A stretch of 64,000 nt of DNA, taken from Sheuella amnicola. GTDB taxonomy: Bacteria; Pseudomonadota; Gammaproteobacteria; Burkholderiales; Burkholderiaceae_B. This document shows, one piece after another, positions 41,438-52,983 of the stretch. Made by a program: the position numbers and the translations under genes. The DNA lies in contig NZ_JAAGRN010000002.1 in assembly GCF_010499255.1 (NCBI RefSeq), positions 186,001 through 250,000 of the forward strand, in the 5' to 3' direction. The notes beneath the pieces are model-generated. The model was not told where the DNA came from and did not search any database. It saw only the letters and a program-made list of their open reading frames with translations. Numbering within the stretch: position 1 is the first letter of the stretch; every line of letters starts with the position of its first letter.

Positions 41438-41455
41438 CTACTCCACCGTAACGGA
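41438..41455 (-). other. Displaced glmS 3' end (attL-like): codons Ser-Val-Thr-Val-Glu-stop
   Basis: Read on the minus strand these 18 bases are TCC GTT ACG GTG GAG TAG. The true glmS end at 51126-51109 is AGT GTT ACC GTT GAG TAA. Six of 18 bases differ and every difference is synonymous, so this is a genuine glmS tail from another allele or species, not chance similarity. Codons upstream of the Ser (Q-P-D-H) do not match GlmS, which places the element junction just before it. Confidence 0.85.
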
Positions 41456-41794
41456 GTGGTCTGGCTGGGGGGTAATTCTGAACCCGTTCATTCTTTCACT
41501 CCTCCTCTGATTAGCTACGTCGTAAGGCTTAGACACAAGGGTCTAAGGCTCGGCTCGTACACAGAATACCAGACGACTCTCTCGGACGAAGTAATCAGGC
41601 TCAGAGACGTTGAAAAATTGACTTTTAAGGACATAGCTCAGCTCCTTATTTCCGAGGGCTGGAAGAGTCCAAGGGGGTTCTCTCTTGGACCTGAAAGCGT
41701 GTTCTCAATTTACAAAAAACGGAAGATCCGAGACGCCCGCCTGTTGTCATTACCAGAGATAGAAATCGCTGAAGTCACCGTCAAAGATAGATGA
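41456..41794 (+). CDS. Small HTH-like protein at the left end of the element
   Basis: 112 codons as read. The start is uncertain: the GTG at 41456 overlaps the left inverted repeat and no ATG lies inside the frame, which is open further upstream. The segment LTFKDIAQLLISEGWKSPRG followed by FSLGPESVFSIYKKRKIRDA resembles the DNA-binding 'Recombinase' region of large serine recombinases (Ile-Ala-x-x-Leu ... Gly ... Ser-x-x-Gly ... Val-x-x-Ile). It could be a recombination directionality factor or a regulator; this is a guess from location and shape. It may depend on the joined ends of the excised circle for its start. Confidence 0.5.
   Translation: MVWLGGNSEPVHSFTPPLISYVVRLRHKGLRLGSYTEYQTTLSDEVIRLRDVEKLTFKDIAQLLISEGWKSPRGFSLGPESVFSIYKKRKIRDARLLSLPEIEIAEVTVKDR
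41463..41477 (+). repeat. Left terminal inverted repeat GGCTGGGGGGTAATT
   Basis: Matches the reverse complement of 51091-51105 (GGCTAGGGGGTAATT) at 14 of 15 bases. It lies 7 nt inside the displaced glmS tail. The pair may be the two arms of the recombinase attP site, which are normally inverted repeats, or true transposon ends. Confidence 0.75.
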
Positions 41795-41843
41795 TGACTT
41801 CAGTCGACTTGATGCTACGACTGGACTTGACCCAGCGCCAGCC

Positions 41844-41999
41844 TCACATCTGACGAACAACGATGACGATGTCTTTAGAGTTCGGGACTTGGGAAAACAT
41901 GAACTCCTTGGACGGAGATTTCCTGATGATGTCCATCACCTTGTCCTTCACCATTCGTAATCCCGATTTCTCCGTTTGCTTCAGGGCTTCTTGACTCAT
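41844..41999 (-). CDS. Small unknown protein (51 aa) with a strong ribosome binding site
   Basis: Found by hand. It reads MSQEALKQTEKSGLRMVKDK, then VMDIIRKSPSKEFMFSQV, ending SKDIVIVVRQM. AAGGAG lies seven bases before the ATG, the best ribosome site nearby. It overlaps the 66-codon ORF at 41875-42075 in another frame. I think this is more likely the real product of this stretch than the tail of that ORF, because its composition is protein-like while the overlapping tail is repetitive (GEGQGDGHHQ). The function is unknown; it is downstream of and probably co-transcribed with the RHH gene. Confidence 0.5.
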   Translation of the reverse strand: MSQEALKQTEKSGLRMVKDKVMDIIRKSPSKEFMFSQVPNSKDIVIVVRQM

Positions 42000-42075
42000 C
42001 TTTTTTCTCCTTTTTTTTCTTAACAGGGTGGAGCTCTCTCCACTCCATGAACGACATTAGTTCTGGCTGTTCCAT
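41875..42075 (-). CDS. Small ORF translationally coupled to the RHH gene
   Basis: 66 codons. Its ATG overlaps the RHH stop (TGATG). The first half, MEQPELMSFMEWRELHPVKK, is followed by a Lys-rich run. The second half is low complexity and is overlapped in another frame by the 51-residue ORF with its own strong SD. The N-terminal half is plausibly translated; the C-terminal half is doubtful. The frame crosses an A8 run where slippage is conceivable. Confidence 0.4.
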   Translation of the reverse strand: MEQPELMSFMEWRELHPVKKKKEKKDESRSPEANGEIGITNGEGQGDGHHQEISVQGVHVFPSPEL

Positions 42076-42269
42076 CAGAACATCTCCTTTCTGACACGGG
42101 TGAAGTTCTCGGGGTTATTGAAGTGCTCGTTGTAAAAGCGCTTCAGAACGTACCTGATGATCTCGGAACGGTTGTATCCCAAGCGATCACACAGTCCGTC
42201 GAACTTGTTGACGAAGTCCTGTGTGGTTCTGATTCCCAGCATTTGGTTACGGTGGGTTCTTGTTGTCAT
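42075..42269 (-). CDS. Ribbon-helix-helix (CopG/Arc-type) DNA-binding protein
   Basis: 64 residues: MTTRTHRNQMLGIRTTQDFV then NKFDGLCDRLGYNRSEIIRY. The pattern is a short beta strand (QMLGIRTT), helix A (QDFVNKFDGLCDRLG) and a helix beginning NRSEIIRYVLKRFYNE, as in RHH regulators. A perfect palindrome AAAACGA-CTC-TCGTTTT lies 25 bp upstream of the start, between it and the divergent gene at 42352. It likely represses itself and that gene. It could also serve as an antitoxin-like or RDF partner; no toxin was recognised. Confidence 0.75.
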   Translation of the reverse strand: MTTRTHRNQMLGIRTTQDFVNKFDGLCDRLGYNRSEIIRYVLKRFYNEHFNNPENFTRVRKEMF

Positions 42270-42293
42270 GTGCTCCCTTCGTGGTGGATAAAT

Positions 42294-42310
42294 AAAACGA
42301 CTCTCGTTTT
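42294..42310. promoter_or_regulatory. Candidate RHH operator AAAACGA-CTC-TCGTTTT
   Basis: Seven-base perfect arms, three-base spacer, in the 82-bp region between the divergent RHH gene and the gene at 42352. This is the position expected for an autoregulatory operator. Confidence 0.65.
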
Positions 42311-42351
42311 CTATTTAGTAAACGGTGAAGTTAGTTAACTGGAGAACACGA

Positions 42352-42894
42352 ATGACCAAAGCCCTTTATGTGACGGGAAAAATGTACGAAGCGAACACAG
42401 TCAGCATCACAGACTCTGAACTCGCAGCGCTTGTATCGGGTGAACAAAGTGATGATGACTTCTGGGAAAACCTACAGGAGCTACACGATCAACTTATGGG
42501 TGATTCCGAAGTGAACGGCTTCCGTGTGACCGATGGACTCCCAAGGTTCCGAGCTTCGGTCGATGACGAGGAGATCGCTTTCGATGACTTGGACGTCGAC
42601 TACAGTGAATCAAAGAACACCCAAAGAGTGACTCCTAAACTCGGCGCCCATGTTCTGGTGTTTGAAAAGTGGAGCGAACGAGGAACGTTGACCTGTGAAC
42701 TCAAACATGGGTTGGACAAAAAGAAGCTAGATCTATCAGCTACCGCTTTCACGCTTCCAACGGGTGAAGTCCGATACGTCGTAGAGCCCTACTACGAAGA
42801 CCACGACTTCGTTTTCGGTGATAGCTGGACGGAAGTGACCCGAACCTACATCGTCACGACCGACAGCTTCATCATCGAGCTCAACCGAGCCTAG
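42352..42894 (+). CDS. Unknown protein of the element (180 aa)
   Basis: Starts MTKALYVTGKMYEANTVSIT at the ATG seven bases after GGAG; the frame is open from 42325. It is acidic (for example VDDEEIAFDDLDVDYSESKN), with beta-rich character in the C-terminal half (GEVRYVVEPYYEDHDFVFGD). No signal peptide, membrane helix or known motif was seen. It is divergent from the RHH gene and shares its operator region. I do not recognise the family. Confidence 0.65.
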   Translation: MTKALYVTGKMYEANTVSITDSELAALVSGEQSDDDFWENLQELHDQLMGDSEVNGFRVTDGLPRFRASVDDEEIAFDDLDVDYSESKNTQRVTPKLGAHVLVFEKWSERGTLTCELKHGLDKKKLDLSATAFTLPTGEVRYVVEPYYEDHDFVFGDSWTEVTRTYIVTTDSFIIELNRA

Positions 42895-42997
42895 ACACCG
42901 TAGCAAAAGGTCTAAGACCGATTGATGAACACACAAAACACTGTTTTAGGTAGCTATCGTGAAAGTCACGATTTTTTACGTTCGTAATTTTCAGGGC

Positions 42998-43576
42998 TTA
43001 CATCAGCTCGCTCATCGTCTTTTCCTTCAACATGTAGTTGAACCAAGCTTCCTTGTGATCCAGTCTTAACGGTTCGATCAAGAACGTGGAAACCTTGGAA
43101 AGCGACTTCAAATCCTTCACCAGTCGTGGATCTAGCTCACCAGTTTCAACGTTGTAGAACTTGTGTAAAACCCGATTAGGGATTGGAAGAATTCCGTGAA
43201 TGTGATGGGGAGACTGGTTGTTGGAGATCTTCTTGAAAAAGCTGGTTTGGTCGTACTCGTAGACGTAGAAGTCCGTGATCGGTAGAACCTTGTCCCAGTA
43301 ATTAGTCAACCGACAGAGCCTTTTCCTAATCTTGGTCAGAACCTTCTTGTTGTATTCGTACTTGGTAGCCAGCTTCATTCCTTGACCAGTTTCTAGCGGG
43401 ACTAGGTTCTTAAAGGCTACGGTTATCGTGAATACAGTCCAGTCAGGGTTAGATGTAATCCACTCCAGTTCTTGTAACTTCAGATTTCGATCAGTCGATA
43501 GGGACTTTCTAACAATCTCTTGTCCGTACCTTTGGTTATGGAACGTGTCTTTTAGTTGGTTAGTATTTGTAATCAT
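42998..43576 (-). CDS. Putative HUH/Rep-like endonuclease of the element
   Basis: 192 residues. Three Rep-type motifs occur in the right order. Motif I is TVFTITVAF (about 47-55). Motif II is SPHHIHGILPI with the HUH pair His125/His127. A YxxK motif III is seen as NYMLKE with Tyr181 and Lys184. The spacing is longer than in the smallest viral Reps but within what such domains show. This points to a rolling-circle replication or single-strand nicking enzyme. The hairpin-rich region just upstream (43609-43693) could be its origin. The evidence is motif-level; a basic protein with a chance HxH is the alternative. Confidence 0.5.
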   Translation of the reverse strand: MITNTNQLKDTFHNQRYGQEIVRKSLSTDRNLKLQELEWITSNPDWTVFTITVAFKNLVPLETGQGMKLATKYEYNKKVLTKIRKRLCRLTNYWDKVLPITDFYVYEYDQTSFFKKISNNQSPHHIHGILPIPNRVLHKFYNVETGELDPRLVKDLKSLSKVSTFLIEPLRLDHKEAWFNYMLKEKTMSELM

Positions 43577-43608
43577 TGTTTACTTTCTTTTAGACGTACT
43601 AAGGATTA

Positions 43609-43693
43609 CCGACCTCTCTAAAAGTCGGTATTGAAATAGCGAGTAAGCTATCAACGGCTTTACATTCACCAAGAACGCTCTCGTATAGCGTTC
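43609..43693. repeat. Cluster of three small hairpins upstream of the HUH-like gene
   Basis: In 85 bases: CCGAC-N10-GTCGG (43609-43628), TAGC-N6-GCTA (43637-43650) and GAACGCT-N7-AGCGTTC (43673-43693). Rolling-circle origins and single-strand origins commonly show such hairpins next to rep genes. The region also contains one copy of the TAAGCTATcAACGGCTTTAC motif repeated at 45103. Function is inferred. Confidence 0.5.
43644..43663 (+). repeat. Intergenic repeat copy 1, TAAGCTATCAACGGCTTTAC
   Basis: Matches 45103-45123 (TAAGCTATTAACGGGCTTTAC) with one substitution and one inserted G. Both copies lie upstream of gene starts within the element. Confidence 0.6.
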
Positions 43694-43717
43694 GTAAAAC
43701 TATTTATAAAAAACAAA

Positions 43718-43737
43718 AAACCACCCGAAGGTGGTTT
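43718..43737 (-). terminator. Intrinsic terminator after the 43760 gene
   Basis: AAACCACC-CGAA-GGTGGTTT, followed on the minus strand by TTTTGTTTTTTAT. It lies 23 nt past the stop of the two-gene unknown operon. Confidence 0.85.
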
Positions 43738-43759
43738 GTAAAAACGTCCGTTTTAGGAC

Positions 43760-44365
43760 TTAGAACTTGAATCCCGAAAAGGACGAAATATCAAATGATC
43801 TTTTTGTCCCGAATTCCAGATTCTCTAGCTCCAATGGTTCTCTACCCACAAGTTTTTCCAACTCGGTCTGTAACATTTCTCTAGCCAAATCCCTCTTGGT
43901 TACTTTCGGTAAAGAACATTGACTCTTGTAATTGCTGGTTGACCAAACGGGACGTGGGATACCTACGGGACAAAGTTCGACTTCAACCCCAAAGCCCACA
44001 TCCCGATCAATCCATAATCTCAAGCTAGAGTCAGTGGTGACAACCTCCCTCAAATACTCAACAGCATTTTCAAGAATCGATTCAGCCTTGTGAAATGAAT
44101 TTCTAGCTTTGTAGCCGTCTCCCTTGAGCGATTGCTTATCACCTAAAGCGTAATAAATCAGACCACGTCTAACTCGCTCTGAGTATTCAACAATCTCTTT
44201 GGGTTTGTAAGTTCTGGACTTCAGTTCAAGCCCCCACTGCTTATCTAAGCTCCGAATACCTACCTCACCCAATACTCGTGTAAGTGATCCACGGGTTACA
44301 GATTGGTTTTTCTCTAGCCGATCAATGAGCGTCTTAATTCGTTTGATTTTCTTCAAGTTGTTCAC
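43760..44365 (-). CDS. Unknown protein of the element, second gene of a two-gene unit (201 aa)
   Basis: The GTG at 44365, about eight bases after AGGGAG, gives MNNLKKIKRIKTLIDRLEKN; the open frame continues to 44434. The protein is basic and helix-rich at the N-terminus, with SVTRGSLTRVLGEVGIRSLD resembling a helix-turn-helix. A middle segment has alternating charged helices (LSLKGDGYKARNSFHKAESI-like). No nuclease or toxin motif was recognised. It overlaps the upstream gene by 32 nt, which implies coupled synthesis and probably a joint function. A strong terminator follows. Confidence 0.65.
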   Translation of the reverse strand: MNNLKKIKRIKTLIDRLEKNQSVTRGSLTRVLGEVGIRSLDKQWGLELKSRTYKPKEIVEYSERVRRGLIYYALGDKQSLKGDGYKARNSFHKAESILENAVEYLREVVTTDSSLRLWIDRDVGFGVEVELCPVGIPRPVWSTSNYKSQCSLPKVTKRDLAREMLQTELEKLVGREPLELENLEFGTKRSFDISSFSGFKF

Positions 44366-44978
44366 GCTTAGGCTCCCTATAAAAACCATCCAAGTCAATC
44401 CGCTCGCTCTCATTCCAACAGAAGCAGATTTCAAAATTCATGTTGCTAGGCTCTAACTCCAACCCTAAGCTCATAGCCATTACGGGGATCCCTGACGGCT
44501 TCATTAGCTCTAGCTGAGATTCAGTGGTTGGAGTCAATCTAAACACTGTCCTTAATTTTTCTTCCGTCATATTTACATCGAACGTACGAGACAATGAGTC
44601 GCTCATTTTTTCGAGGATGAAGTCATGGATTGGTATTTCGATATTTCGAGGAAACATGATCTGTTCGAAATAAAAACCTCGTACATCTCGAACCAAAGTC
44701 ACCTTATAGCCTCGAAGAAAAGACTTCCAAGATTCAGCCTCGGTTTTCATAACCCCGAGATATTGTTTTAATTTGGAAATGATGTATCCGTCACGATACA
44801 TATAGCCAGCTTCATCAAACTCAACTGGCTGTACGTGGTTCACAAACTGACTAACCAACAGTTTTTGATAATCCTCCAACTTCAGCTCTGACTCGTTGAG
44901 TTTTATGTTTAGTTCACGGTAAGCCGAAGTAAAGTTTTTGATTAGACGGTCCGAAGGACTCATGGCTGTTTTTTTCAT
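44334..44978 (-). CDS. Unknown protein of the element, first gene of a two-gene unit (214 aa)
   Basis: Begins MKKTAMSPSDRLIKNFTSAY with GGAG five bases before the ATG. No membrane helix or signal peptide is visible. Features include FDEAGYMYRDGYIISKLKQY and VTLVRDVRGFYFEQIMFPRN; the C-terminus is charged. I do not recognise the family. The two-gene unit lies opposite in direction to the gene at 45207, and such paired unknown genes beside a restriction-modification system are candidates for accessory defence or element-maintenance functions. That role is only a hypothesis. Confidence 0.65.
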   Translation of the reverse strand: MKKTAMSPSDRLIKNFTSAYRELNIKLNESELKLEDYQKLLVSQFVNHVQPVEFDEAGYMYRDGYIISKLKQYLGVMKTEAESWKSFLRGYKVTLVRDVRGFYFEQIMFPRNIEIPIHDFILEKMSDSLSRTFDVNMTEEKLRTVFRLTPTTESQLELMKPSGIPVMAMSLGLELEPSNMNFEICFCWNESERIDLDGFYREPKREQLEENQTN

Positions 44979-45102
44979 AATAACTCCTTTAAGTAAATGA
45001 AAGATGAACTGTTAAGCAAATTGCTCGTTTTGTTCATGTTTCTATTAGACTCCTTTATCCAATAAACATCTCCACCGAGAATAAATGCGCCATTTGAATT
45101 GT

Positions 45103-45123
45103 TAAGCTATTAACGGGCTTTAC
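45103..45123 (+). repeat. Intergenic repeat copy 2, TAAGCTATTAACGGGCTTTAC
   Basis: Near-identical to 43644-43663. It lies in the 228-bp AT-rich gap between the divergent genes at 44978 and 45207. That gap otherwise holds promoters I cannot place exactly. Confidence 0.6.
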
Positions 45124-45206
45124 GACAAAAATCCGACAAAACCAACAAAACAAACAGTCGAAAATCGTCTATTTCAAGTGTTAAGGAATTGTGTTACATT
45201 GAAGAC

Positions 45207-45932
45207 ATGAGTCTCACCAAGAATTCACGACCACGACACTTCCCCTACCAACACCCAACTTTTGGTCGTGGGAAGAACGTTAAGGACGAGTCGGCTTGGA
45301 AAAAGACGATCTACTACGTCTGGTGGTCGTACCTGAAGCGGAACGAGGACTACTTGAAGACCTGTGAGTCCAGCGGTAAAGGCTCCCTGTCGAAGCTCTA
45401 CGAAGACTTTGGCGATGTAAGGGCTGACGACTTCAAGGCTTGGTGGACTGAAGACGGTCGTGGGGCTAAGTTGTTTTCGAACCCACCAGCCGAGGAAACG
45501 GTAAGACTTCTCTCCAAGAGCGAGGAAGCCCCTACAGACGGTGATCGTCTGTTAGTCAGCGTTCCCCTCAACCTTCCCAAAAAATTCATCCTCCAGCGCT
45601 TTAGAAGCCTTCTAGACCAGCATCACAAAGGTCAAAGAGGAAAGCGCTACGCTAAAACGAGTAAAGCCAAGTACCAATTCACGGGTCAACCGAACATCGA
45701 AGCTCTTACGACCGCTCTAAACGTGTGGGACAAGCGGATCGAACACCCAAAAATGAAGCTCTGGGAGCTAGGTCAATTCCTCCCTCTCAACAAGCATTTG
45801 TACGTTGACTACTTGAAGAGCGGGAAGCCGTTAGACACGGCTAGTAAAAAACTCATGGAAGCGACTGTTAGCCGATACCTAAAGAAAGCACGAGCTTCTG
45901 TAACGAACACATCTAAGGGGCTCTTCCCTTAA
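45207..45932 (+). CDS. Conserved hypothetical protein of the element (241 aa)
   Basis: Begins MSLTKNSRPRHFPYQHPTFG; a TTG at 45189 is an alternative start. The segment WWSYLKRNEDYLKTCESSGK followed by LYEDFGDVRADDFKAWWTED and GAKLFSNPP resembles a widespread uncharacterised family in proteobacterial mobile elements ('FGDV..DDF..WW...G..LF'). The C-terminal part is basic (HHKGQRGKRYAKTSKAKYQF), which would suit nucleic-acid binding. It precedes the restriction-modification genes by 48 nt and could be co-transcribed. The function is unknown. Confidence 0.7.
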   Translation: MSLTKNSRPRHFPYQHPTFGRGKNVKDESAWKKTIYYVWWSYLKRNEDYLKTCESSGKGSLSKLYEDFGDVRADDFKAWWTEDGRGAKLFSNPPAEETVRLLSKSEEAPTDGDRLLVSVPLNLPKKFILQRFRSLLDQHHKGQRGKRYAKTSKAKYQFTGQPNIEALTTALNVWDKRIEHPKMKLWELGQFLPLNKHLYVDYLKSGKPLDTASKKLMEATVSRYLKKARASVTNTSKGLFP

Positions 45933-45980
45933 CACCGTAAAAACAGACCAAACAAGATTAAAAATCAACTGAGAACTGAC

Positions 45981-46892
45981 ATGACAGCCCATTTCGACAA
46001 GCTACAAGCACTTAAAAACAACCCAAAATTACCTGAAGTCGACCGACCAAAGGTAATGGAGACATTTGATCGCTATCAAGACTGGCAAAAGCAAATGAAT
46101 GAGGCTAGCGGAACGACATTCGAAATAATTTCAACCCTCATTAAAGCAACCAATGAATATAAGAAATTTATTGAAGTTGAATTAATATTTGACTCGAAGG
46201 AAGATTTTTTATATCGCCAGAAAGGTCAGTTAAAACTTGACAACACCATTTTAGAAGAGTTTATGCCAAGACTGGTAGATGTAAGATTAGTTCCCGGCTT
46301 AGGCTCGGTGGCAAATCTCATTACTGGACCTCAGCAATGTTTTGCTGGTTTTTATGTTGGACCTATAACAAGCCCGCTGAATGACGGCGGCATTTTCGTA
46401 AAAACAAAAGATCAAGACTTTACTGTTGGGCGTCAACTCTTTCTTAAGGCGTCCACCTCTGAAAAATATGAATCGAATACATATGAATCCAAACTAAATA
46501 TTGGATATTTTGTTTCTGAAATCAAGACGAATTTAGATAAAACAATGTTCCAAGAAGCGGCAGCGACTGCTAGAGAGTTGAAGGCAACGGTAAAAGATTC
46601 TAGGTACGTTCTTTTGTGTGAGTGGTTGGACATGACTCCGATTGATACAAGAATGACAGATATTGACAATGTAATTCTATTAAGACAAGCCAAAAGACTT
46701 GCCTCAAATGTCAGATCTAATTTTTCATCTGTAGAAGGAAGAAAACAGTCAAGGTCAGAGTTCATTGACCATCTCGAGGCAAATCCACTAAGTCTCAAGT
46801 CCTTTGAGTTGATTGTTAATCTTTTGAATGAAGCGTTTCCAGTCATTACAGAGCTCAATGAGGACTCAGTTCTCCAGCAGGGCTATTTCTAA
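45981..46892 (+). CDS. Type II restriction endonuclease, Bpu10I-like
   Basis: 303 residues. Several blocks match my memory of the Bpu10I family: ELIFDSKEDFLYRQKGQLKL, DNTILEEFMP, KTKDQDFTVGRQLF and SEIKTNLDKTMFQEAAATAR. The last holds the E-x-K of the PD-(D/E)XK nuclease core (Glu/Lys in SEIK). CEWLDMTPIDTRMTDID follows. The methyltransferase gene starts 2 nt after its stop. Bpu10I itself is a two-subunit enzyme cutting CCTNAGC; only one subunit gene is seen here, so the recognition site may be different. The DNA is more AT-rich than the neighbouring element genes. Confidence 0.75.
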   Translation: MTAHFDKLQALKNNPKLPEVDRPKVMETFDRYQDWQKQMNEASGTTFEIISTLIKATNEYKKFIEVELIFDSKEDFLYRQKGQLKLDNTILEEFMPRLVDVRLVPGLGSVANLITGPQQCFAGFYVGPITSPLNDGGIFVKTKDQDFTVGRQLFLKASTSEKYESNTYESKLNIGYFVSEIKTNLDKTMFQEAAATARELKATVKDSRYVLLCEWLDMTPIDTRMTDIDNVILLRQAKRLASNVRSNFSSVEGRKQSRSEFIDHLEANPLSLKSFELIVNLLNEAFPVITELNEDSVLQQGYF

Positions 46893-46894
46893 TC

Positions 46895-48586
46895 ATGTCT
46901 TTGTCATTCATTGATTTGTTTGCTGGCTGTGGCGGATTTTCGCTTGGGTTAGAAAAAGCAGGACTAAGAGGGGTTCTTCATCTTGAGTTGGATGAATGGG
47001 CTTGTGAAACTCTTACTGCCAACTTTGATAAAGAGACCGTTCTTTGTGCCGACATCCGAAATATTCCAGATTCGTTTATAGAAAAATATAAAGGAGTTGA
47101 TGTAATTGTTGGCGGTCCACCTTGTCAAGGCTTTTCTGTCGCTGGCGGTAGTCAATTCGGAATACATGACCCAAGAAATGAGTTGGTGTTTTGGTATTTG
47201 AAGTGGGTTGAAATCATTCAGCCCAAAGTGGTTGTAATTGAAAACGTTCCGCAAATTTTCACAAAAAAAGATACTAGCGGCAAAACAGTTCTAGATATAG
47301 TCAAAGAGAAGTTGGTAAAATTTAACTATACAGTCACGCCTAAACTACTCACAGCTTCAGATTTCGGCGTTCCACAAAATAGGACTCGAGCATTTATATT
47401 TTGCTCCAAAGCTAATAGTGCCACGTTGGTTCCAGAGGTAACTCATTCCATTGAGAAGTCTTACAGCCTCTTTGAAGATAGGTCTACTCATCCTTATGTA
47501 ACAGTTGGGGATGCTTTGCTCGATTTGCCAAATATTGAGTCAGGCATGGGTAGTGATGATTTGATTCCCTATGAAAGCACCCCTGAATCCAATTATCAGA
47601 AAAAAATGAGAGAGGGCAGCAAAGGCGTTACCAACCATATCGCTATGAAGCACACGTCAAGGTTAATAGAAAGATTTAAGAATATTAAATCGGAGCAGTC
47701 TCTTAAGGATGTTTCATCAGAGTTCGGGCAAGTCAAAAAGAATAGTGGAGAAATCAATGAAAAACCATTTAAGTACAACAACTACCGACTGTCTTTGGAG
47801 AAGCCGTCGCTAACCATCCCCGCCTCCTTTCAATCACTCTTTATTCACCCTACATTACACAGAAACTTAACAGCACGTGAAGCTGCTCGTTTGATGTCGT
47901 TCCCTGATGCTTATGTATTCAGGGGTAAAAGAACAACGATGAGCTGGGAAAAGAACCTTTCTCAATACAACCAGATCGGCAATGCCGTTTGTCCGTTGGT
48001 AGCTGAAGCAATTGGGCGACAAGTTCTATCAGAGGTTAAGCCCTCTAAGAATGGAAAGTTTCCTACAGTATCTGAAGCGCTTGGAGCCGAACTGGTAAGT
48101 AAAGGTCAAAAGCCAAGCACTTTTTCCGATGTAAATCGTGAAGTTCTTACCAAGATGAGCAAATCTTTTTCTAAGGCTCATCCCGAATTCGAGTTAAAAA
48201 AATTCGAATCCAAATCCATTCCTATCGAGGCAATCCCACTAGCGATATTAATCGCCACCGAAAAGCAATGCTTGATCTGTTCGAGAGTACACCCGCCGTA
48301 TGGTGTTCATTCAAATGCTATTTCTTTTCTAATTGGAAAGGAAGATACGGAGAGTCTTTTAATCACGGAGAATGATCACGGCTTAGATTATCACTTACGT
48401 TCGTTATTGAATATAGAGCATCAAATTGGTCATTTTGTGGGTTCAGTATTGGGAGAGCTTGGGTATGGTGATCTTGGGCTTGTAGTTAATCCAAGAACGG
48501 GACGTATGGTTCGAGGCATCAGTAATGTAACTAGTCCCCGTTGGCTTGAAAAATTCAGGAAACAATTAGTTTTTCCCAGAAAATAG
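46895..48586 (+). CDS. DNA (cytosine-5) methyltransferase with a long C-terminal extension
   Basis: 563 residues. Canonical motifs: I FIDLFAGCGGFSLGLEKAG, IV GGPPCQGFSVAG with catalytic Cys77, VI VIENV (Glu116), VIII QNRTRAFIF, and X NQIGNAVCPLVAEAIG near 355-370. About 190 residues continue past motif X, where most C5 enzymes stop. That tail (for example CLICSRVHPPYGVHSNAISF and SLLNIEHQIGHFVGSVLGEL) has no motif I can name. It may help target recognition, bind the endonuclease or be a fused separate domain. The gene follows the endonuclease by 2 nt, forming a compact R-M unit. Confidence 0.92.
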   Translation: MSLSFIDLFAGCGGFSLGLEKAGLRGVLHLELDEWACETLTANFDKETVLCADIRNIPDSFIEKYKGVDVIVGGPPCQGFSVAGGSQFGIHDPRNELVFWYLKWVEIIQPKVVVIENVPQIFTKKDTSGKTVLDIVKEKLVKFNYTVTPKLLTASDFGVPQNRTRAFIFCSKANSATLVPEVTHSIEKSYSLFEDRSTHPYVTVGDALLDLPNIESGMGSDDLIPYESTPESNYQKKMREGSKGVTNHIAMKHTSRLIERFKNIKSEQSLKDVSSEFGQVKKNSGEINEKPFKYNNYRLSLEKPSLTIPASFQSLFIHPTLHRNLTAREAARLMSFPDAYVFRGKRTTMSWEKNLSQYNQIGNAVCPLVAEAIGRQVLSEVKPSKNGKFPTVSEALGAELVSKGQKPSTFSDVNREVLTKMSKSFSKAHPEFELKKFESKSIPIEAIPLAILIATEKQCLICSRVHPPYGVHSNAISFLIGKEDTESLLITENDHGLDYHLRSLLNIEHQIGHFVGSVLGELGYGDLGLVVNPRTGRMVRGISNVTSPRWLEKFRKQLVFPRK

Positions 48587-48608
48587 GAGTTCAGCCAATT
48601 ACTTCGAA

Positions 48609-48623
48609 CTACTCGACGGTAAC
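48609..48623 (-). other. Third glmS-tail sequence inside the element (Val-Thr-Val-Glu-stop)
   Basis: On the minus strand: GTT ACC GTC GAG TAG, preceded by GCT (Ala). It encodes the same V-T-V-E-stop as the glmS end with synonymous third-base changes, different from both other copies. The flank TTCGAA-CTACTC resembles ACGAAA-CTACTC of the left copy. It separates the R-M side from the recombinase module and may mark an older junction. Confidence 0.7.
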
Positions 48624-48630
48624 AGCAACT

Positions 48631-48652
48631 AAACCACGTTACAGCGTGGTTT
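48631..48652. repeat. Inverted repeat AAACCACG-N6-CGTGGTTT
   Basis: Eight-base perfect arms beside the internal glmS tail and after the methyltransferase gene. No T-tract follows, so termination is doubtful. It could be a recombinase-binding site. Confidence 0.55.
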
Positions 48653-48743
48653 ACGACCACTAAACATTAGCACGTAAAGATTTACTTTAATTCATGTTTC
48701 AAAGAGAATAGTTCTAAGAAATGAATGAATTAAGGAGTGTGAA

Positions 48744-49415
48744 ATGGCTGTTTACGGTTACTTGAGGGTCTCGACGCTGACCCAAGCGAAAGAAGGTGAA
48801 TCGCTCGAAGCCCAGCGCTTACAGGTCACTAGCTACGCTGTTTCTAAAGGGCTCCAGCTCCCCGAGGACAACGTTTACGTCGAAGCGGGTGTTAGCGGTG
48901 GCTCTGAGTTTCAAGAGCGTCCAGAGGGCTCTAAGCTCTTCCAAGTCCTAACCGAAGGGGACATGGTCGTGTTCCCTAAATTAGACCGAGCTTTCCGTAA
49001 CACTCGTAACGCTTTGAACGTTCTTCACGAGTTAAAGGCTAGAGGGGTTTCCGTCCACTTCATCGACCTTGGTGGTGACGTTACGGGTAACGGTGTAGGG
49101 GCTATCGTCTTTACTATCTTGTCGGCTTTCGCTACGTTCGAACGGGAGCGTATAGCTGCTCGTATCCGTGAGGTGAAGCAACTCAAGAAGGCTCAAGGGA
49201 AGTTCACTGGTGGAAAGCGAGCCTTCGGCTATGACGTTGTAGACGGGATTAAGATCCCCCGAGAAGACGAACAACAGGTGATTCGTGAGATGGTAGCTAT
49301 GAGAAAAGCGGGAGCTACCTATCGTGGGATCTCTGATTGGATGGCTCTTACCCAAGAGAGAAAAATGACGTTCATGGGGGTGAAGCGTGTGTTGGTTATG
49401 GAAGGTATGGCTTGA
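48744..49415 (+). CDS. Small serine recombinase (resolvase/invertase family)
   Basis: 223 residues. The catalytic domain starts AVYGYLRVSTLTQAKEG with nucleophile Ser10, then VVFPKLDRAFRNTRNALNVL (family D-R/LxR motif) and FATFERERIAARIREVKQ, the E-helix. A short C-terminal DNA-binding part (FGYDVVDGIKIPREDEQQVI ... TYRGISDWMALTQER) resembles a truncated 'Recombinase' domain. AAGGAG lies well before the ATG. Its stop overlaps the start of the large recombinase (TGATG). Two adjacent serine recombinases suggest division of labour between integration and excision, or a heteromeric recombinase. Confidence 0.9.
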   Translation: MAVYGYLRVSTLTQAKEGESLEAQRLQVTSYAVSKGLQLPEDNVYVEAGVSGGSEFQERPEGSKLFQVLTEGDMVVFPKLDRAFRNTRNALNVLHELKARGVSVHFIDLGGDVTGNGVGAIVFTILSAFATFERERIAARIREVKQLKKAQGKFTGGKRAFGYDVVDGIKIPREDEQQVIREMVAMRKAGATYRGISDWMALTQERKMTFMGVKRVLVMEGMA

Positions 49416-51091
49416 TGGCTAAATCAAAAGCGAAGTCACCAGAGAACACGCTTCACATCTACACAAGGGTTTCCACAGTCACACAAGCTGACAAGGGTAC
49501 TTCGCTCGATAGCCAACAACAGCTAGGGCTTAAGAAGGCTAAGGAACTCAAGTTTGACCACGAGATATGGAACGAGGGTGGAAAAAGCTCCCATCACGAC
49601 GACATTCAAGGTCGACCCAAACTCTATGAGCTCTTCCAAGCTATCAAAGCGGGGGATGTAAAACACATTTGGGTTTACGACCAGTCCCGTCTCTCTCGTA
49701 ACGATCAAGTAGCTTCGATTCTTCGTTACGAATTCAACAAGCAAGGCGTCACGCTCTACACGAAGGACGGAAAGTTTGACCTTTCTAGTCCGTCCGACAA
49801 GCTCTTGAAACAGATGTTGGACGCTGTCGCTGAGTTTGAAAACTCCGTGAGAGCCGAGCGATCACGTATCGGTAAGTTGATGAAGGTGAAAGCAGGTTTT
49901 TGGCATGGTGGTCCCCCCCCCTTCGGCTATGACCTTATTCACGGAAAGCTCGTCGAGAAGAAAGACGAAAGCAAGTGGGTCAAGCTCATCTTCAAACAAG
50001 CTCTAAAAGGTGTCCCTGTAGCCCAAATCAAAAGGGAGCTAGATTCGAACGGTGTACTCGCTAGACGTGGAGGGCTATGGACTCTCGGCTCGATCGAATC
50101 ACTCATGACGAACACCCACTACCTTGGTAGATACGTTTTTACAGATAGCGTTTCGGGTGAATCTGTTGAGGTTAAGTGTCCCGTGATTGTTGACGAGGTC
50201 ACGTGGAACTCCATCAACCTAGCCAGAAAGCGTAAAGCGAGCCGTAAAGATCAACAGAACGCTACGGTGAAGAACTTCTACCTCTTACGTGACTTCATGG
50301 TCTGTGGTCACTGTGGTCGGAAGATGGCTGGTCGAATCAAGCCCTCCAAGTCCGAGTACATGTACTACTGTCCCAACAAGGAACGGGTTTGGGCTAAAGA
50401 TGGTGAAAGTAAAACTCACTACCAACGGGGTACTGGCTGTGGCTTCGATCGAGCCATGAACATTCAGATCACCGATAAGCTGGTGTTCGACACGGTTGTT
50501 CAACTTCACAAAGACTCAAGCATCCTCAAAGAAGAAGTAAGGAAGCGAATCTTCGCTGAAAAGGGAATCAAACAGATCTCATCCGAAGCCGAAATGAAAG
50601 GCTACGAAAAGCAACATCGAATCCTTCAGAGAGAACTATCCAACCTTCAAGAGTCCATTGGTCATCTTGAAGCAAACCGTATCCTGAAGCGAATGGACGA
50701 CAAAGCGTTCAAGTCGGCTATGGATCGTCTGAACGAACAAGCCGACCTCTACAAAACCGACATCACGAACCTCCGTCTGAAGCTCCGTGGTGAAACAGAG
50801 AAGAAGGAATGGGTTGACTGGGTTGGTATGTTCGGTGAAGAGATCAAAGAGAAGGCTAAATTGACCGATGAACAGCGTCAGCTATACCTTCAGGGCTTGA
50901 TCGAAAAGATCGAGTGTCGGTTCCTTCCTAAAACCCGAGATCACGAGCTAGAAATCCACTTCAAACACCCCATCGTCGGGGACAAGCTCAAGTGGAACGA
51001 CCCCAAGGTGAAAGCCAAGGGTTACAAGCTCCTAGAAGGCTCTAAAACGACCCAAATACGGGTGGAAAAGAGGGACGGTAGGGGAAAGTAA
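49415..51091 (+). CDS. Large serine recombinase (integrase type)
   Basis: 558 residues from the ATG at 49415; the frame is open from 49337. Catalytic domain: HIYTRVSTVTQADKGTSLDS (Ser20), IWVYDQSRLSRNDQ, and FENSVRAERSRIGKLMKVKA. A Recombinase domain follows with RGGLWTLGSIESLMTNTHYL. A zinc ribbon has cysteines in VCGHCGRKMAGR, YYCPNK and TGCGF. A coiled-coil-like stretch runs from about 430 to 490. The gene's stop codon is the first base set of the right inverted repeat, so the enzyme lies at the very end of the element next to its target, glmS. It is the likely integrase. Confidence 0.93.
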   Translation: MAKSKAKSPENTLHIYTRVSTVTQADKGTSLDSQQQLGLKKAKELKFDHEIWNEGGKSSHHDDIQGRPKLYELFQAIKAGDVKHIWVYDQSRLSRNDQVASILRYEFNKQGVTLYTKDGKFDLSSPSDKLLKQMLDAVAEFENSVRAERSRIGKLMKVKAGFWHGGPPPFGYDLIHGKLVEKKDESKWVKLIFKQALKGVPVAQIKRELDSNGVLARRGGLWTLGSIESLMTNTHYLGRYVFTDSVSGESVEVKCPVIVDEVTWNSINLARKRKASRKDQQNATVKNFYLLRDFMVCGHCGRKMAGRIKPSKSEYMYYCPNKERVWAKDGESKTHYQRGTGCGFDRAMNIQITDKLVFDTVVQLHKDSSILKEEVRKRIFAEKGIKQISSEAEMKGYEKQHRILQRELSNLQESIGHLEANRILKRMDDKAFKSAMDRLNEQADLYKTDITNLRLKLRGETEKKEWVDWVGMFGEEIKEKAKLTDEQRQLYLQGLIEKIECRFLPKTRDHELEIHFKHPIVGDKLKWNDPKVKAKGYKLLEGSKTTQIRVEKRDGRGK

Positions 51092-51105
51092 ATTACCCCC
51101 TAGCC
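51091..51105 (-). repeat. Right terminal inverted repeat (AATTACCCCCTAGCC on the plus strand)
   Basis: Reverse complement GGCTAGGGGGTAATT matches the left copy at 41463-41477 with one mismatch. It ends 3 nt before the glmS stop codon complement. Confidence 0.75.
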
Positions 51106-51108
51106 ACC

Positions 51109-52941
51109 TTACTCAACGGTAACACTCTTGGCCAGATTCCTTGGCTTATCCACATCCGTTCCCCTGGCGCATGCCGTGTGATATGCCAGTAATTGCAATG
51201 GCACCGTATGCAAAATGGGAGACAAATATCCGTAATGCTCCGGCATGCGTATGACGTGAACACCTTCGCTGCTGACGATTTTCGTATCGTCATCCGCAAA
51301 AACATACAACTCTCCGCCGCGCGCACGCACCTCTTGCATGTTGGACTTCAACTTTTCTAGTAACACGTCATTGGGTGCGATCGTAATGACAGGCATTTCC
51401 TCGGTCACAAGCGCCAACGGACCGTGTTTCAATTCGCCTGCAGGATATGCCTCGGCATGGATATAACTAATCTCTTTAAGCTTTAACGCCCCTTCCAGCG
51501 CGATCGGATAATGCATGCCACGTCCTAAAAACAAAGCATTCTCTTTAGTCGCAAAGCGATCCGCCCATGCAATGATCTGCGGCTCAAGCGCCAGCACGGC
51601 GCTGATAGCAGCAGGCAAATGACGCAGGGCTTTTACCTGCTCAGCTTCCTGCTCATCCGTAATCCTATCGTGTACTTGCGCCAACGCGAGTGTCAACATG
51701 TACAAAGCCGTCAGCTGTGTCGTAAAGGCTTTTGTGGATGCCACACCGATTTCAACCCCTGCTCGCGTAATGTATGCAAGCTTGCACTCGCGCACCATCG
51801 CACTGGTCGAGACATTGCAAATCGTTAAGGTTTGTTCCATTCCCAGTGAGCGCGCATGCTTTAATGCGGCAAGGGTATCCGCAGTTTCACCCGACTGCGA
51901 TATCGTAACAACCAACGTATTGGGATTGGGTACGCTGTCGCGATACCTATACTCGCTGGCAATTTCTACCGATACGGGAATTTTCGCAATCGACTCAATC
52001 CAGTACTTTGCGGTCAATCCAGCGTAATAACTGGTGCCGCAAGCCAACACCAGCACGCGATCGATTTGCTTGAAGATTTTGTAAGCTGCGTCACCGAACA
52101 ATTCTGGGGTAACTGACTCGACATCCTCAAGCGTATCCGCAACCGCGCGCGGTTGTTCGAAAATTTCTTTTTGCATGAAGTGACGATACGGACCAAGCTC
52201 GGCTGCACCCGTATGCACATGCACCGTATGAATCTGACGCTCGATCCTTTTGCCGCCCGAGTCCATGATCCAGACATTACCAAGCTGCAAATCGGCTACA
52301 TCGCCATCCTCAAGGTAAATGATCTGATCTGTCGTTCCAGCCAAAGCCAGGGCATCGGATGCCAGAAAGTTTTCATTCTTTCCCCGTCCAATGACGAGTG
52401 GCGAACCTTGTCTTGCGGCCACGATGCGATGCGGTTCATCCCGACAAAACACTGCGATCGCATAGGCACCATGCAAGCGCTTGACGGCCTGCTGCACAGC
52501 GTCAAGCAAGTCGCCCTGATACAAATGGTGCACAAGATGGGCAATCACCTCTGTATCGGTCTGACTTTCGAATACGTAACCAACCCCCTGCAACTCACGC
52601 CGCAATTCTTCGTGATTCTCAATGATTCCATTGTGAACAAGCGCAATTGAAGGCTCGTTTCCGGTCAAGGAAGAAAAGTGAGGGTGTGCATTATGCGTAG
52701 CAGGCGCACCATGCGTTGCCCATCTCGTGTGGGCAATGCCCGTAAAGCCGGCAACACTGTCCTTTGCGATATGGTCAGCCAATTCGGCCACGCGCTCAGT
52801 GCTTCGCGCGCGACGTAAACTGCCATTGTCGTAGACAGCTACGCCGCATGAATCGTACCCGCGATACTCGAGCCGCTTGAGACCTTCCACGAGAATTGGG
52901 GTAATGTCCCGGGACGCCACCGCGCCGACGATGCCACACAT
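51109..52941 (-). CDS. glmS: Glutamine-fructose-6-phosphate aminotransferase (glucosamine-6-phosphate synthase)
   Basis: Makes glucosamine-6-phosphate for peptidoglycan and lipopolysaccharide. 610 residues after removal of the extra two N-terminal codons: the ATG at 52941, eight bases after AAGGAG, puts the catalytic Cys1 in MCGIVGAV. The glutaminase domain contains [18 protein letters not shown]. Two SIS domains follow, with CGTSYYAGL and [15 protein letters not shown]; the C-terminus is [11 protein letters not shown]. The gene is complete even though the mobile element begins 3 nt after its stop. Its 3' end is also the conserved target of Tn7, but this element is unrelated. glmU, the next pathway step but one, is also in the window. 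Confidence 0.95.
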
Positions 52942-52983
52942 AAGCAATCTCCTTATTTAGAAGACTATTTTGCACCGAACATC

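Follow-up and report, generated by a model that had tools for sequence, protein, structure and literature searches.

A genomic island at the 3' end of glmS in Sheuella amnicola with a large serine recombinase as its likely integrase

Tn7 is the textbook example of an element that targets the 3' end of glmS; it inserts at a set distance from the gene and generates a 5-bp target duplication. A different type of element appears to occupy this position in Sheuella amnicola, where a 64-kb stretch of DNA (contig NZ_JAAGRN010000002.1, positions 186,001–250,000; the whole stretch is referred to below as the window, and positions are counted on it) contains an island of 9,671 bp, measured core to core, that adjoins glmS. 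We consider it very probable, from comparison of sequences, that this is a genomic island integrated by a large serine recombinase (LSR), with the last glmS codons as its attachment site in the host gene (attB). As for Tn7 and Tn7-like elements at attTn7, the end of a host gene is used and the gene is left functional, but the glmS island has no Tns proteins among its scanned open reading frames (ORFs; the Pfam scan covers ten ORFs of the stretch, and the shortest ORFs lie outside it), it inserts inside the coding sequence, and it represents a different enzyme class.

In the staphylococcal cassette chromosome (SCC) elements, for which the target of the Ccr recombinases is rlmH, a serine recombinase island likewise occupies the 3' end of a conserved housekeeping gene and has a copy of the gene tail at its far end, and tandem stacking and variable cargo are further points of likeness. 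The target gene (glmS), the host group and the absence of methicillin-resistance cargo distinguish the present island from SCC. CcrB is the best NCBIfam match of the window LSR (E 1.8e-27), with 96 bits against a cut-off of 900. Serine integrases such as A118/LI, Bxb1 and phiC31 are alike in the three-domain protein, in a single integrase gene beside the attachment site of the element (attP), and in a pseudo-palindromic attP with halves of ~25–28 bp about a central dinucleotide. Compared with these, the island differs in its target, the 3' end of glmS, and the listed phage and plasmid homologues are ~25% identical or less; a protein-coding half-site and a lineage-dependent orientation belong to the glmS island family.

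Open-access literature on serine recombinases or integrases in connection with glmS or attTn7 yielded no such element, subscription papers, preprints and supplements being outside the scope of that search. Durrant et al. 2022 (PMC10083194) catalogue LSRs by the thousand and predict their target genes, many of these LSRs being site-specific; the words "glmS" and "glucosamine" are absent from the main text as available, and its supplements may list glmS-targeting LSRs. A Methylophilaceae tycheposon has an island range that ends at glmS, but features a tyrosine recombinase and a tRNA-Met border (PMC10872708, available sections). In the available sections of these two papers, of PMC3401170 and of a casposon paper, no serine recombinase island at glmS is described.

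Island ends, exchange point and coding half-site

The initial annotation of the window described two synonymous copies of the glmS tail, and both are confirmed: Ser-Val-Thr-Val-Glu-stop (SVTVE*) is read on the minus strand at 41438–41455 and at 51109–51126, with 6 of 18 bases different, all synonymous, and a six-frame translation of the window gives just these two SVTVE* strings. The 15-bp inverted repeats with one mismatch also hold, GGCTGGGGGGTAATT (41463–41477) and AATTACCCCCTAGCC (51091–51105) being complementary at 14 of 15 positions. The stretch is present in one copy in its own genome, and the G+C content is 0.44 in the island, compared with 0.49 and 0.52 outside. A short ORF, MNGFRITPQPDHSVTVE*, at ~41438–41500 on the minus strand, follows an AGGAGG-like stretch and terminates in the distal tail; it may be due to chance, and short ORFs with an SVTVE* ending also occur in G083 and G1021 (genomes and loci used for comparison are given by handle).

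The exchange point can be placed by combining two elements. In the window, it is the base following the AC of the last Thr codon that differs between the two tails (C vs G), and in G022 it is the base preceding it (GTG vs GTT). If both elements use one point, the crossover is at AC, since G022 bounds it on one side and the window on the other. Element ends joined in silico, which give the putative attP, formed an imperfect palindrome with its best even centre exactly at AC in five of five elements, with 19 (window), 19 (G022), 22 (G1156), 17 (G1096) and 17 (G083) complementary pairs of 28; a test that allowed odd centres as well agreed on the centre in three of three. The single palindromes are modest, because shuffled sequences also reach such scores, and it is the shared centre that carries weight. 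In the window attP, the symmetric parts are AATTACCCCC and AGCCA, 13–28 bp from the core, and ACTC, 5–8 bp from the core; the outer of these corresponds to the inverted repeat of the initial annotation. Because the joined ends are symmetric about AC, inner bases included, the 15-bp inverted repeats appear to form the outer arm of each attP half-site, and an interpretation as transposon ends was rejected on the same ground. For serine integrases, half-sites of 25 bp with a zinc-ribbon motif at positions 16–24 are given in the available part of Rutherford et al. 2013 (PMC3783163), where efficient exchange is stated to require parallel alignment of the central dinucleotides.

The half-site joined to glmS is at the same time coding sequence. 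The GlmS C-terminus KSVTVE* is retained in all ten occupied glmS genes that were read (window, G125, G006, G022, G003, G029, G083, G317, G1096 and G1156), because the glmS-side half carries the Thr wobble base and Val-Glu-stop. Seven spellings of the element-borne bases after AC are found (CGTTGAGTAA, GGTGGAGTAG, GGTGGAGTAA, AGTCGAGTAA, CGTCGAGTAA, AGTGGAGTAA and AGTGGAGTAG), and these vary solely at the wobble positions of Thr, Val and stop. The glmS-joined half always encodes V-E-stop, whichever genes stand behind it. We lean, with some reservation, towards the interpretation that one attP half must both bind the recombinase and spell Thr(wobble)-Val-Glu-stop. It is always this coding half that adjoins glmS, but with gene order reversed between lineages it is the LSR-side half in the window lineage and the p112-side half in the others. 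Where the glmS end is readable, 4 of 19 loci of the same genus have an element end there, as does 1 of 11 from other families. A degenerate pattern built from glmS-side ends already seen, which misses the G1096 and G1156 ends, matched in 5 of 399 genomes of the order, every time at the last glmS Thr codon, while the reversed control gave 0 of 399; the glmS-side ends of G083 and G317 were first found with this pattern.

Related elements and empty sites

With the window LSR as query, matches at E 1e-40 were obtained in 4 of 32 genomes of the genus, and in the same four among 268 genomes of the family. At E 1e-60, the LSR was found in 3 of 399 genomes of the order and in 1 of 369 of the class, which was its own genome, and a search of wider genome contigs gave two loci, one of them G125 again. 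The G083 LSR matched in 2 of 98 genomes of G083's family (three places) and in 1 of 245 of G125's family. Viral contigs gave no match to the LSR, and plasmids none at E 1e-60. Ten LSR places are considered here, namely the window, G125, G006, L002 (Limnohabitans), G022, G083, G012, G1096-C33, G1096-C27 and G1156. At all ten, the LSR-side end bears the glmS tail or a copy of it, and this includes the last three places, which were found afterwards and served as a test. In the window, G125 and G006, glmS itself provides the LSR-side tail; in G022, G1096-C33 and G1156, glmS is on the same contig but at the opposite element end; and for G083, glmS is located on a separate contig whose end has the matching arm. 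Had the recombinase homologues never occurred beside glmS, as was considered with the initial annotation, the proposal would have been undermined, but six of the ten places share a contig with glmS and the seventh, G083, has a matching end at glmS elsewhere.

Four elements are complete on a single contig: the window island, G022 (~15.3 kb), G1096 (~13.3 kb) and G1156 (~10.1 kb). Each has both tail copies with the same core, and the LSR and the proteins p112 and p247 are common to all four. The LSR frame of G022 (L034 14632–16365) reads through the attachment site and terminates in SVTVE*. In G1021:C115 (L082 3098–3522), a remnant junction consists of an LSR end, SVTVE* and a p112 start; its distance downstream from a glmS that is intact and free of any element is ~8 kb, with a copper-resistance-like gene cluster in between. 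In G1156, a second p112-like stretch (L095 16614–16871) is found just beyond the distal tail, and is perhaps the remnant of another island.

The location at the 3' end of glmS, as for attTn7, could also be that of a decayed Tn7-like transposon. The island ends inside the coding sequence, however, at the Thr codon and not downstream of the gene, its far end has a tail copy, and ends and LSR recur jointly in relatives. No Tns or other transposase match is found among the ten scanned ORFs, in agreement with the earlier observation that tnsABCD is absent. With no tns gene among these ORFs and the exchange point within the Thr codon, the Tn7 reading was rejected for the window, and its probability is close to nil. 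The joint recurrence and the lack of a Tns match in the window instead support the earlier suggestion of a glmS-targeting family separate from Tn7.

Empty sites indicate which of the two tails is native. The gene flanking the G083 distal copy is present in 12 of 13 genomes of G083's genus (E 0.001), and seven loci from G083 relatives have a full glmS tail. Five were used as empty sites, and two were set aside with ~0.4 kb (G1025) and ~1.3 kb (G235) between glmS and the flank gene. In the five empty sites, G083's distal flank gene comes directly after glmS. Before the core, these sites agree with the glmS side of G083 at 50–54 of 63 bases and with the distal copy at 20–25 of 63. Past the core, the G083 distal flank aligns at 72–80% over 576–620 nt, and the start of these alignments falls between 8 nt ahead of the core and 17 nt past it. 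Over the 11 bases after the core, the distal copy is matched at 7–11 and the glmS side at 7–8, with one tie. Because five G083 relatives join glmS to the distal flank, we take the distal copy as native and the glmS-side bases as element-borne. This comparison of occupied and empty sites supports the original proposal that an element other than Tn7 integrates site-specifically into glmS and brings a substitute tail with it. The G006 flank likewise follows glmS in other genomes, 13 nt after it in G009, ~0.1 kb in G020 and ~0.95 kb in G005.

Integrase assignment, mechanism and orientation

A single protein, the LSR of the window, contains a Resolvase N-terminal, a Recombinase and a zinc-ribbon domain, each above the Pfam cut-off. 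The segments TLHIYTRVS and RLSRN are invariant across the five aligned LSRs, and presumably it is in this conserved region that the catalytic serine is located. The gene ends 18 bp before the outer edge of the glmS stop codon, and its ATG at 49415 overlaps the stop codon of a small serine recombinase gene (TGATG). Both serine recombinases of the initial annotation are thus present, with Pfam domains, but two are not needed, since the LSR by itself can account for the family and the small one is absent in G1096 and G1156. The LSR is the likely integrase, because it is the sole recombinase common to all four complete elements; the small serine recombinase and a 192-aa protein are found in the window and G022 only. 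One might nevertheless regard the small recombinase as the integrase with the LSR as an accessory, or the two as an obligate CcrA/CcrB-like pair, given that the genes overlap, that the window and G022 each have the two of them (62% identity), and that both are distantly similar to Ccr models. Against this, tblastn of the complete G1096 and G1156 elements gave no small recombinase, the sole matches (28–29%) being the LSR itself, none is seen in the available part of G083, and at the Pfam threshold applied the small recombinase shows neither a Recombinase nor a zinc-ribbon domain. Such an arrangement is improbable in our view, and the LSR is retained as the predicted integrase. Upstream of the small recombinase, window 48625–48744 and L034 13790–13940 share CACGTTACAGCG and TTTACTTTAATTCAT, perhaps a conserved regulatory region.

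In the reaction we envisage, LSR dimers would bind to attP, carried by the circular island, and to attB within glmS, both sites would be cut at the 2-bp core (AC, within the last Thr codon), and religation would place one attP half on each side. The native tail would thereby be left at the far end of the island, with the element half completing GlmS. Excision would require a directionality factor, for which p112 is a tentative candidate; in the circle, p112 and the LSR would be immediate neighbours on either side of attP.

The elements fall into two arrangements. In the window, G125, G006 and L002, the LSR is located at the glmS-side end and points toward glmS, as judged from the sense of LSR and tail. 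In the other six places the LSR occupies the opposite end, and p112 is the neighbour of glmS where this can be read. The LSRs of the first four places share 66–100% identity with that of the window, and those of the six others 37–53% (41% for G1096-C27; identities of the last two places, in G1096 and G1156, were also given relative to G083). Random orientation by way of a palindromic core was considered and rejected, as AC is non-palindromic and orientation tracks the LSR lineage. Given the near symmetry of attP, the LSR coding strand of the window lineage would have GT at the core in place of AC. We infer that, with direction set solely by the core AC, a lineage could turn round by swapping AC for GT in the circle and re-adapting the halves.

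Tandem junctions, in which an LSR end, a tail and the end of a second element follow each other, are read directly in the sequence of L002 and G1096-C27 (L094). In L002, where the tail copy reads SATVE*, this tail forms the junction with a second, inverted LSR fragment. Tandem stacking is possible because the distal tail copy keeps a near-complete target, and the stacks would have arisen by stepwise insertion.

Several observations weigh against integration by the LSR at glmS. Mobility by the LSR is predicted from sequence. Three of the ten LSR places (G012, G1096-C27 and L002) are without a shown link to glmS, and the readable glmS end of G012 has no arm. The G125 LSR is in two pieces in different frames and is cut by the contig end. 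Of 1000 shuffles, with 24 pairs scored, the observed palindrome maximum was reached by 24 for the window, 0 for G022, 90 for G1096, 1 for G1156 and 19 for G083. In the attB sites described for other LSRs, the zinc-ribbon outer motif is displaced 5 bp, a half-turn, inward (PMC3783163, available part), and a by-eye look at glmS gave no clear inward-shifted outer motif. A third, weaker tail-like sequence, AVTVE*, was missing from the initial annotation and is unexplained by the integration model; it is possibly the scar of an earlier junction, and a search with the same pattern did not show it in the other three complete elements (G022, G1096 and G1156).

Two further observations of this kind bear on alternatives. 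For the window's own flank no empty site was found, the flanking transporter region being essentially without DNA match in the genus, so that the requested comparison of occupied and empty sites succeeded for G083, with its native distal copy, and not for the window; and G006 is a remnant, with the C-terminal 143 residues of the LSR and no distal copy, which shows that such elements decay. Both would suit a distal tail that arose by chance or is a left-over glmS fragment of an earlier rearrangement, but both tail copies with the same core occur in the four complete single-contig elements, and the G083 empty sites contradict a left-over fragment, which makes this origin very improbable. Similarly, G1096 and G1156 carry Phage_integrase (tyrosine recombinase) genes of 199–200 aa, which could move the islands with the LSR as mere cargo. 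This is equally hard to credit, as no tyrosine recombinase is matched in the ten window ORFs or in the ten G022 ORFs scanned, and a palindrome centred on 2 bp suits serine integrases (PMC3783163, available part).

Gene content, cargo and implications

The features of the island are listed in Table 1. From the left, p112 is followed by three short minus-strand ORFs, including the ribbon-helix-helix-like one, the 189-aa and 192-aa proteins, two ORFs without family, p247, the restriction endonuclease and methyltransferase, and the two recombinases. Conjugation (type IV secretion) genes were not found among the window ORFs scanned.

Table 1. Features of the glmS island in the window
Feature	Position	Strand	Remarks
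Distal glmS tail copy, TCCGTTACGGTGGAGTAG, SVTVE*	41438..41455	-	From the core outward, probably the displaced native tail; basis includes empty sites of G083 relatives
Distal core dinucleotide AC (glmS sense)	41448..41449	-	
p112-side attP half-site (predicted), 28 nt	41450..41477	+	Holds left inverted repeat
p112, small protein, predicted helix-turn-helix	41456..41794	+	Start codon uncertain
Ribbon-helix-helix-like regulator, 64 aa	42075..42269	-	66% identical in G022
189-aa protein	42325..42894	+	No family match
192-aa protein, PHHIHG motif	42998..43576	-	49% identical in G022
224-aa ORF	43760..44434	-	No family match
214-aa ORF	44334..44978	-	No family match
p247, conserved, function unassigned	45189..45932	+	In all four complete elements; 52, 35, 23% identity
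Bpu10I-type restriction endonuclease (cargo)	45981..46892	+	Pfam PF09549, E 3e-72
C5-cytosine DNA methyltransferase (cargo)	46895..48586	+	Pfam PF00145, E 1.8e-71; PADLOC MTase_II
Internal tail-like AVTVE*	48609..48626	-	Between methyltransferase and small recombinase
Small serine recombinase, 223 aa	48744..49415	+	Pfam PF00239, E 1.5e-32
LSR, 558 aa, predicted integrase	49415..51091	+	Resolvase, Recombinase and zinc-ribbon domains
LSR-side attP half-site (predicted), 28 nt	51091..51118	-	Holds right inverted repeat; encodes glmS Thr wobble base and Val-Glu-stop
glmS, intact, target gene	51109..52947	-	Final bases element-borne
Proximal core dinucleotide AC	51119..51120	-	In last glmS Thr codon

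In the four complete elements, p112 is the first gene at its end. Its predicted structure has a pLDDT of 77 and a best PDB match at E 0.72, and a role as directionality or regulatory factor is a guess. The predicted structure of the 192-aa protein (pLDDT 60) has IS200/IS608-type transposases among its top matches, all at E 0.24 or worse, a faint hint that it is possibly an HUH replication protein. In plasmids, p247 matches three Bradyrhizobium records at ~36%, near a recombinase family protein. A protein of 148–155 aa without known family (L045 16101–16547, L093 10725–11192 and L095 10378–10824; 48–76% conserved) occurs among elements without the small recombinase.

The cargo differs between elements and is mostly anti-phage. 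The window carries the Bpu10I-type restriction-modification pair, G022 a 1,490-aa helicase-nuclease matching PDC-S37 (PADLOC E 6.7e-74), G083 a type IIG restriction-modification system, G1096 an Mrr-like endonuclease, a type III-like methylase and a Res subunit, and G1156 a gene that weakly matches REP_ORF2-G2P. Also present in G022 are genes for a gp45-like sliding clamp of phage type and for an AAA protein resembling clamp loaders (L034 5091–6405), which is unusual in a 15-kb island.

An unrelated enzyme class thus appears to have settled on the gene end that is used by Tn7, with a different way of sparing the gene, in that the attachment site re-encodes the end of the protein. The short stretch concerned would be a clean natural case of DNA under dual selection, as code and as recombination site, and with target, core and half-sites predicted to the single base, the proposal is directly testable. 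The LSRs of the family may serve as integrases for a site found in most bacteria of the group, and, with their varied restriction and other defence genes, these islands may be a means of spreading defence among these bacteria.

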